64,000 nucleotides of DNA from Flavobacterium dauae. Lineage in GTDB: Bacteria > Bacteroidota > Bacteroidia > Flavobacteriales > Flavobacteriaceae. How positions within the stretch are numbered: position 1 is the first letter of the stretch; each line of letters opens with the position of its first letter. Where the stretch lies: contig NZ_CP130821.1 in the NCBI RefSeq assembly GCF_004151275.2, positions 310,001-374,000 on the forward strand, written 5' to 3'. Shown piece after piece: positions 33,932 through 36,282 of the stretch. The position numbers and the translations under genes were made by a program. The notes beneath the pieces are model-generated. The model did not search any database and had not been told where the DNA came from. It saw only the letters and a list, made by a program, of their open reading frames with translations.

Positions 33932-34048
33932 TAAAAACTATCTTTTAAAAAACAACATTTCATAAAAACAATTTTTTTAATAAAATTAACATCGTGTTAA
34001 TTTTTTTTGTTATATTTACAATTCAACTAATTAAAAAAATAAGTATTT

Positions 34049-35145
34049 ATGAGCAATTTTACTAAAATTTTGTGGGGGGGGTAATTGCCCTAAGCCTTAC
34101 AGCGTGTAGTAGCGACAGTGTTTTTGAAGAACAAAATACTGATGAAGAACTGCCAATGACCACCAACAGTTTTAATAATAACAACAGTGGGCAATATGGA
34201 CCTAACCCTACACCTAATTTTTATGGAAAAAATTATATTTCGCCATGGGATATTTGGTATAGAAAAAGTATTGTTAACGGTCAACAAGATTTGCAACCAT
34301 TTTATTACTTTACCAACGGAAATATGGAAGATGTTACCCCTTATGATATCAGGGCTTTTGCGTATGCAGGTTTGGCGTATTTTGACAGTGATAATGATGG
34401 AACATATAACGATCCTAAAAAATTACAGGATACAGGCAATGGATTTGTTGCAGCGTTGAATAACGGTAATTACCCTAACTTATATGCACCACTAAGTAAT
34501 CCGCAAGAAGTAGGTAACTTGATAAGAATACCTGTTCCAATTGATGTACCTGCTTATCCAAATCCTAATTCCTCATTTCGTATAGAAGATAAAATTAACC
34601 ACTTGCCTGTAATTGGGGCAACTAATGCCGCTCCAAAATATACTACTCCTTATTCGGGATTTAATTTTGGCGGAACCATAACGCCGCAAGAAAGAGATTT
34701 ATTAGCCAATTACGGTAAAATATTCTTTTACGAAGTACATGTGTACAATAAGGTTACCGGTGCATTAGTGTTAAGTACGATGATGCACCCTAAAATTCAA
34801 ACACTTCCTAATGGAATAACACTTCCTAGTGATGTGGATCCGGGTTGGAAACCGGTTACGGATTTGTCGGGAACAAATCATCTTACCGGTAACGTACCAG
34901 GCTTTGGTAATTTTCCTTTATACTATTTTAATGCGAATATTAGCGGGGGAACACAGTGGGATTTTTCTGCTTCGTACAATGTTAATAAGTGTGACTCTCG
35001 CGAGGTGGTTTTTGATGTGCCTGCGGCGGTTGCCCCTTATGAGGTACAAATTGATCCCGTATTCAAGGTTACTTTAGATTTTTTTGCAACCGGACATACA
35101 GGCTGGGTTAACTCGGCACTGTATTTAAACCTGCACAGTAAATAA
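34049..35145 (+). pseudogene. Lipoprotein gene interrupted by a one-base shift in a G8 tract (possible phase-variable gene)
   Basis: From the ATG at 34049 translation reads MSNFTKILWGG and stops at 34082 because the tract at 34074-34081 has eight Gs. One more G would continue into VIALSLTACSSDS, giving a textbook lipoprotein signal (MSNFTKILWGGVIALSLTAC) and a protein of about 365 residues. The downstream frame (open from a GTG at 34072 to 35145) is intact: an Asn/Pro-rich stretch, then PYDIRAFAYAGLAYFDSDNDGTYNDPKKL, NYGKIFFYEVHVYNKVTGALVL and two late aromatic stretches. I recognise no family. GTG initiation would give a signal without its positive charge, so it is unlikely. Slipped-strand phase variation, a recent mutation or a sequencing error are all possible; the otherwise undamaged frame argues against long-standing decay. 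Confidence 0.75.
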
Positions 35146-35202: not shown

Positions 35203-36282
35203 ATGAAAAAGTATATATTCTTTTTAATACCGTTATTGTTTATAAACACGGTGTACAGCCAGGTTTTATATAGTGACGATTTTGACAATTACACCTTAGG
35301 CAATTTAGGAACCGACCCCACCGGTATAATACCCGGACAAGGTGGCTGGTTAACAAAAACCTATTATACAGCTCCTAATAATAGTTATTTTACAGTTACT
35401 ACTGAACCAAACAAAGGCAAGGTACTTACTTTATCTGCTCCTGTTTCCCATTCTTCGGGTAACTATTTTTCATACATATCTAAACCGGGTATAGATACCT
35501 TTATTGATCAACGTACAAACGGAAACAATGTTATTAAATTTGAAATAGATTATTATACAGGACCACAATATTATATGAGTGGGTGGAATGGTAGCGTTCC
35601 TGATAGTCAAATAAGTTTAATGAGTGAAACAGGTAAATTGTTTATGTACTATCATACATTACTTTCCCAAGCTGAAGCTATCACTGTTAGATATTCTACT
35701 AATGGAGTATCTACAGACGCAGGTGTATTAGGCAATGACCCTTGGGGCGATTTGTTACCTGTTGATACTTGGATTACTTTTATAGTGTATATGGATTATA
35801 CCAATAAAAAAATATATTTTGAAACACCTTATCTTGGAACTGTTGTTTCTGGCGATTTTTTAAGTCAAAGTACCTCAACCAATTTAATAGAAGATTTTAA
35901 ACCTGTTGAAATAATATTTGATATTGATGCAAATACAAATAGTAATGTACAGTACATAATTAATAGGTATGATAATATTAAAATAACGGCATTAAAAAAA
36001 GTGCCACAAAGTGTAATTGACTTAGGTACAAATGATTTTCTTTCAGAAAAATTTAATTTATACCCCAACCCGGCAAACAACATAGTAAACATAACAAATA
36101 ACGAAAATATGTTTGTTAAAGAGGTTGCAGTTTACGATGTTACAGGTAAGTTAATCAATACTCAAAACTTTAATGAACAAGCAGAAATACAGTTAAACGT
36201 AGAAAACTTGGCAAGCGGTACCTATTTATTGCATTTGCAAACCAATGAAGGCACAGCGGTTAAAAAGCTGGTGAAGAAGTAA
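35203..36282 (+). CDS. Secreted protein with T9SS sorting domain
   Basis: The 359-residue precursor has a signal peptide (MKKYIFFLIPLLFINTVYSQ). A central region (about 20-265; LYSDDFDNYTLGNLG at its start, KFEIDYYTGPQYYMSGW, VDTWITFIVYMDYTNKKIYFE) has the strand pattern of LamG/concanavalin-like carbohydrate-binding folds. The C-terminus (FNLYPNPANNIVNI ... ASGTYLLHLQTNEGTAVKKLVKK) is a type A T9SS sorting domain, so the protein should be exported through SprA/Sov and anchored or released at the surface. Its ATG is only 20 bases after a terminator, and no consensus promoter is visible. The G-tract lipoprotein precedes it. Confidence 0.85.
   Translation: MKKYIFFLIPLLFINTVYSQVLYSDDFDNYTLGNLGTDPTGIIPGQGGWLTKTYYTAPNNSYFTVTTEPNKGKVLTLSAPVSHSSGNYFSYISKPGIDTFIDQRTNGNNVIKFEIDYYTGPQYYMSGWNGSVPDSQISLMSETGKLFMYYHTLLSQAEAITVRYSTNGVSTDAGVLGNDPWGDLLPVDTWITFIVYMDYTNKKIYFETPYLGTVVSGDFLSQSTSTNLIEDFKPVEIIFDIDANTNSNVQYIINRYDNIKITALKKVPQSVIDLGTNDFLSEKFNLYPNPANNIVNITNNENMFVKEVAVYDVTGKLINTQNFNEQAEIQLNVENLASGTYLLHLQTNEGTAVKKLVKK

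Follow-up and report, generated by a model that had tools for sequence, protein, structure and literature searches.

A poly-G tract of varying length in the signal-peptide code of a multigene family of predicted lipoproteins of Flavobacterium dauae and related genomes

RESULTS

The predicted lipoprotein locus

The window, meaning the whole stretch of 64,000 nucleotides that was analyzed (Flavobacterium dauae, assembly GCF_004151275.2, contig NZ_CP130821.1, positions 310,001 to 374,000), carries a predicted lipoprotein gene followed by a gene for a cargo protein of the T9SS. Features are given in window coordinates.

33999..34048, + strand: AT-rich conserved 5′ leader of the cassette (from paralog identity)
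34049..34073, + strand: start codon (ATG at 34049-34051) and signal-peptide n-region, MSNFTKIL(W), with T at 34073 (direct read)
34074..34081, + strand: poly-G tract, n=8, proposed slippage switch, out of register (direct read and family comparison)
34082..34084, + strand: TAA closing the ATG frame directly 3′ of the tract (direct read)
34084..34107, + strand: h-region and lipobox, IALSLTAC, in the long register, Cys codon at 34105-34107 (direct read)
34072..35145, + strand: lipoprotein long ORF, 357 aa from GTG, body predicted to be beta-rich, stop at 35143-35145
35203..36282, + strand: partner gene, T9SS type A cargo with C-terminal sorting domain (PF18962, TIGR04183)

The frame of the ATG at 34049, read directly from the assembly, yields MSNFTKILWGG and then a stop, ending before the lipobox. 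The long register, entered from the GTG at 34072, opens with VGGVIALSLTAC and includes the lipobox LTAC. An earlier note on this DNA had described the ATG, the eight Gs, the immediate stop and the intact frame to 35145 in another register, and direct reading confirmed all of these. In the syntenic P. aquimaris ortholog (L077), whose DNA aligns with the window in pieces of 83.6% and 88.6% identity, the tract has nine Gs and the gene is open from the same ATG. Its lipobox region is thus in frame with that ATG, and n-region, h-region and lipobox are visible by eye (MSNFTKILWGGVIALSLTAC). LPAM_1 matched four of 37 aligned family members at E ≤ 0.01 (best, 0.0011). The lipobox Cys begins CSSDSVFEE in the window member and CTTDSVFED or CSEDVYQE in other members, which bears only a loose likeness to SDDFE, the consensus for surface-lipoprotein export in F. 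johnsoniae, where a polar residue and then acidic residues follow the Cys (PMC5080379, in the part available).

The partner gene. The next gene had been called that of a T9SS surface protein, and its C-terminal sorting domain indeed scores well above cut-off (64 bits against 27 for PF18962, 58.8 against 23 for TIGR04183). Its residues from about 19 to 266 are predicted to form a ConA-like jelly roll (beta-sandwich), and the test for a concanavalin-A-like fold was positive. At 28 of 40 family loci a T9SS gene follows within 200 bases; this adjacency is new beyond the first finding. At three loci without a close T9SS neighbour (L061, L097, L081), transposase-like frames lie beside the family member. 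Most of the N-terminal half of the window's partner gene (35351-36021) has no DNA alignment with the P. aquimaris locus, and its flanks do align. One partner gene (G027:C23:94838-94846, L070) itself contains an in-frame G9 tract.

How rare is the tract? The earlier note held that a run of eight Gs is rare in DNA of this composition. Apart from the run at 34074-34081, no tract in the window reaches seven Gs, and GGG makes up 12 of the 206 glycine codons in ten window genes. Shuffled windows, however, gave a mean of 0.98 G7 matches, and the two overlapping matches observed were reached in 24 of 100 shuffles. Across the genome, tracts of at least eight Gs number 12, where the window's GG frequency predicts about 6.2. 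G8 positions number 22 in the F. dauae genome against a median of 1 across 58 genus genomes (61 searched, minus F. dauae, G022 and G027), two of which have 19 and 20. In view of the shuffles and of these two G8-rich genomes, rarity alone is weak evidence. Since it does not exceed chance by itself, the argument must rest on comparison.

A multigene family of predicted lipoproteins

Searches of Pfam and NCBIfam gave no match to the window member at E ≤ 0.1. A family profile was built from 37 proteins (the window member and 36 database relatives); it matches no solved-structure sequence at E up to 1. When the long frame was searched against 60 related genomes, three had matches (the F. dauae genome, G022 and G027). 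Among 398 genus genomes, drawn from a larger group, the profile matches 11 at E 1e-6 or better. Strong matches come from seven genomes, which appear to fall in the Paenimyroides/Myroides group; full scoring finds seven family matches in F. dauae (G000), six in G022, seven in G027, five in G130, nine in G197, three in G229 and one in G299. The window gene is one member of a multigene lipoprotein family, with several copies in most of these genomes. The earlier note had proposed a phase-variable surface lipoprotein; its proposal gained support, but it had missed the family, the shared cassette described next and the usual T9SS partner.

The shared 5′ cassette. Family members of the first cassette type share one layout: AT-rich leader, ATG, short peptide ending in KILW, G tract, hydrophobic stretch and lipobox. 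The ATG with its KIL peptide is present in all 23 copies. In 22 copies it stands at exactly -25 from the tract, with an extra ATG at -35 in one of them, and in the remaining copy, which has an extra A ahead of the Gs, at -26; this conserved start does not bear out the possibility that relatives initiate downstream of the signal peptide. If the 5′ part is taken as the 75 bases preceding the tract together with the segment between tract and lipobox, the window gene and its tract-bearing paralog G000:2545852 are 86% identical in this part and 58% in their bodies, and the 46 within-genome pairs of tract-bearing copies average 86% and 61%. A 15-base cassette core, AAAATTTTGTGGGGG, occurs at 23 places in eight of the 398 genus genomes, 22 of them in the seven family genomes; the match in G169 has different surrounding sequence, and the reversed pattern, used as control, has two matches. 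Six copies, whose tracts range from 6 to 10 Gs, belong to a second cassette type (e.g. MKKLLFLL, tract, VTLTAC). Two tract-free family members in F. dauae encode the same Gly-Gly-Val by other codons.

The seven genomes have 53 tracts of at least eight Gs. By hand count over both cassette types, 23 of these fall within the family's signal-peptide code, where about 0.004 would be expected; three of the 23 precede decayed bodies. The position of the tract in the signal peptide exceeds chance.

Tract length and intact bodies. The earlier note had proposed comparing the tract in relatives, where a uniform nine Gs would have pointed to error in the assembly. Six genomes hold 17 intact first-type copies with an uninterrupted tract, having 7 Gs (one copy), 8 (seven), 9 (three), 10 (five) or 11 (one). 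These lengths span all three registers, and only the three copies with nine Gs are open from the ATG. After the tract, 314 to 356 codons are open in the 17 copies. Length also differs between near-identical paralogs of one genome: a G197 pair has 10 and 8 Gs at 99% amino acid identity (pS 0.014), and a G022 pair has 8 and 10 Gs at 96% (pS 0.060). Another G197 pair, at 100% amino acid identity, sets 10 Gs against an interrupted tract of seven Gs then A (G197:C1:2249338, L159). That interrupted copy is in frame, with the protein body of the ten-G copy and a 5′ part 85% alike; it may be a product of recombination that is stably expressed. In F. dauae, the window tract at G000:C1:344074-344081 and that of its paralog at 2545849-2545856 both consist of eight Gs, and both copies are out of register.

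Among the closest 45 of 253 pairs, dN/dS is at most 0.47 in every pair where it is defined, a ratio that reads alike under selection while on and under recent silencing, and that gene conversion between paralogs blurs. The highest value is that of the window copy and its P. aquimaris ortholog. Not all copies are whole. A TAG precedes the tract in G022:2151545, the open frame past the tract is just 22 to 31 codons long in G197:2246962 and in three G299 copies, and an internal TAA interrupts G130:C48.

Database relatives. A database search gave 76 related proteins at E ≤ 0.001. Of these, 26 carry a complete signal peptide of the MKK type, with Gly-Gly in 19 of them. Nine begin (M/V)GGV(I/V)(A/G)L, as a GTG start at eight Gs would give, among them two of F. 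dauae's own and P0046, whose second-type peptide makes the reading uncertain. One begins as 11 Gs would give, two are read in from upstream, out of frame, and 38 lack an N-terminal signal peptide or are of another form. The P. ummariense proteins P0056 and P0064, which begin at internal methionines, match two copies that are out of register, one of the second type with 9 Gs and one with 10. None of 96 database proteins, in which each 90% cluster is represented by a single sequence, has the in-frame peptide KILWGG near its N-terminus; this argues against frequent on states in the first cassette type.

Other poly-G loci in these genomes

In a second poly-G family the tract lies mid-gene, after ...CDGQVRWSQAI (in L120 also ...RWNQAI). 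Its loci are L051, L120, L125, L130 and L138. The F. dauae member (G000:C1:877264-877275, L051) has 12 Gs, in frame, within a 656-codon frame with Por_Secre_tail; elsewhere the tract is in frame in G197 (12 Gs) and G299 (10), and out of frame in G022 (9 and 11) and G229 (9).

Three further G8 tracts were observed. At G000:C1:1008907-1008914 (L054) a DegT/DnrJ-type aminotransferase gene shifts frame at the tract and again about 170 bases on; this may be a pseudogene, assembly indels or a disabled switch. A small membrane-protein-like frame is apparently broken at G000:C1:903251-903258 (L052). At G299:C1:597440-597447 (L132) a lipoprotein-like frame of more than 400 codons (...LLTSCSND...) has a signal-peptide tract out of frame with the nearby ATG.

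DISCUSSION

Proposed phase variation and its alternatives

The cassette and its conservation, the variation in tract length, the intact bodies and the partner gene are observed, and their best explanation, which we hold with considerable confidence, is slippage-driven phase variation of a multigene lipoprotein family whose members would switch independently. As in repeat-tract contingency loci, length alters the frame and differs both among relatives and between near-identical copies. Counting against phase variation are the small share of intact copies in frame and the equal length of the two F. dauae tracts.

That equality would also fit a homopolymer error in the assembly, with the true tract in frame and the gene always expressed, and the two frame changes of the aminotransferase gene indicate that this assembly may hold some indels. 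The window copy alone may be such an error. The family pattern is beyond it, with lengths that vary across several assemblies and even within one genome, between near-identical paralogs, and we reject assembly error as the general cause; the database relatives P0003 and P0004, moreover, begin as the eight-G state would give, 59 frames of at least 100 aa cover 88% of the window, and genome completeness is 99.97%. On balance we regard this explanation as unlikely. Polymerases and ribosomes can slip on long homopolymer runs, and transcriptional or translational slippage on the G run would give some full-length protein at any length, so that the tract would tune expression and not switch it. This would account for the intact bodies of copies that are mostly out of frame, and it is the least unlikely of the rivals; against it, lengths occur in all three registers, the in-frame one included, and G197:2249338 holds an interrupted in-frame version.

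The nine database proteins that begin (M/V)GGV(I/V)(A/G)L could instead mark the GTG at 34072 as the true start of a gene that does not switch. Only 8 or 11 (or 5) Gs would put that GTG in the frame of the body, whereas the tract is 7, 9 or 10 long in nine of the 17 intact copies; the product of such a start would have no charged n-region, and the ATG with its KIL peptide would be left to persist in all 23 cassette copies. We give this explanation the least credence of all. Barely more probable is a decaying pseudogene family, to which the broken copies point; 17 copies have intact bodies, and dN/dS in the closest pairs is below 0.5.

Proposed mechanism

Under slippage-driven phase variation, slipped-strand mispairing at the G tract in replication would alter its length. 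A length that aligns the ATG with the frame of the body would yield a full signal peptide with lipobox, and the lipoprotein would be exported and lipidated; in the other two registers translation from the ATG would stop at or soon after the tract, and no exported protein would result. Each unit probably shows a different pair of lipoprotein and T9SS protein of predicted lectin-like fold at the surface, which would make the population a mosaic of combinations. The benefit would most likely be escape from phages or grazers, or varied attachment. Of the ‘phase-variable surface lipoprotein’ first proposed, phase variation is supported by the varying tract lengths and the conserved ATG, while surface exposure and actual switching are what we infer.

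A broader reading, for and against which we find the case evenly balanced, is combinatorial surface variation in Flavobacteriia. Each genome would have several interchangeable two-gene units of poly-G lipoprotein and T9SS lectin-like protein, reshuffled by recombination around the common 5′ cassette, and the second poly-G T9SS family would also switch in these genomes. This would be a slippage counterpart of Opa, possibly driven by phages or grazers, in a phylum whose known variation is based on inversion.

If phase variation is right, Flavobacteriia, too, gamble with their surface through slippage, and the frequent absence of the signal peptide from database copies is explained. The family would also lend itself readily to testing, since any sequencing run shows the switch state.

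Comparison with known systems

Contingency loci that work by slippage are familiar mainly from host-adapted pathogens in other phyla, and Mycoplasma, with which we also compare the family, are wall-less bacteria not known to have a T9SS. Titles and abstract openings of open-access papers, among the matches listed, contain no report of tract-slippage phase variation in Flavobacteriia. In Bacteroides, phase variation proceeds by DNA inversion through recombinases or invertases, according to the available part of a review (PMC11868660) whose main text, to that extent, has no word starting with Flavobact. Those systems resemble the one proposed here in varying surface structures within the same phylum and differ in mechanism, which here would be tract slippage and not recombinase inversion (PMC11868660). 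The Mycoplasma Vlp and Vpma systems consist of lipoprotein families expressed in combinations, as is proposed here, but Vpma depends on site-specific recombination (PMC11868660). The G/C-tract contingency loci of Campylobacter share with our family an intragenic G tract whose length sets the frame of the gene, as far as the source at hand describes them; here the tract lies in the signal peptide of a Bacteroidota lipoprotein multigene family, and no sequence relation is claimed (PMC8355987).

The closest parallel we draw is to opa of Neisseria, described in the part of the source available as several paralogous surface-protein genes with a CTCTT slippage repeat in the leader-peptide code and recombination between copies (PMC3960869). 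Both systems have multiple paralogs per genome and, in the code for the leader peptide, a repeat that is proposed here to slip as well; recombination among copies would be a further common trait. They differ in the repeat, a mononucleotide G tract and not pentamers; in the products, predicted lipoproteins and not outer-membrane barrels; and in setting, another phylum with a T9SS partner gene and with switching that we infer. Membership of Opa is not claimed; by analogy, the family would work like Opa.
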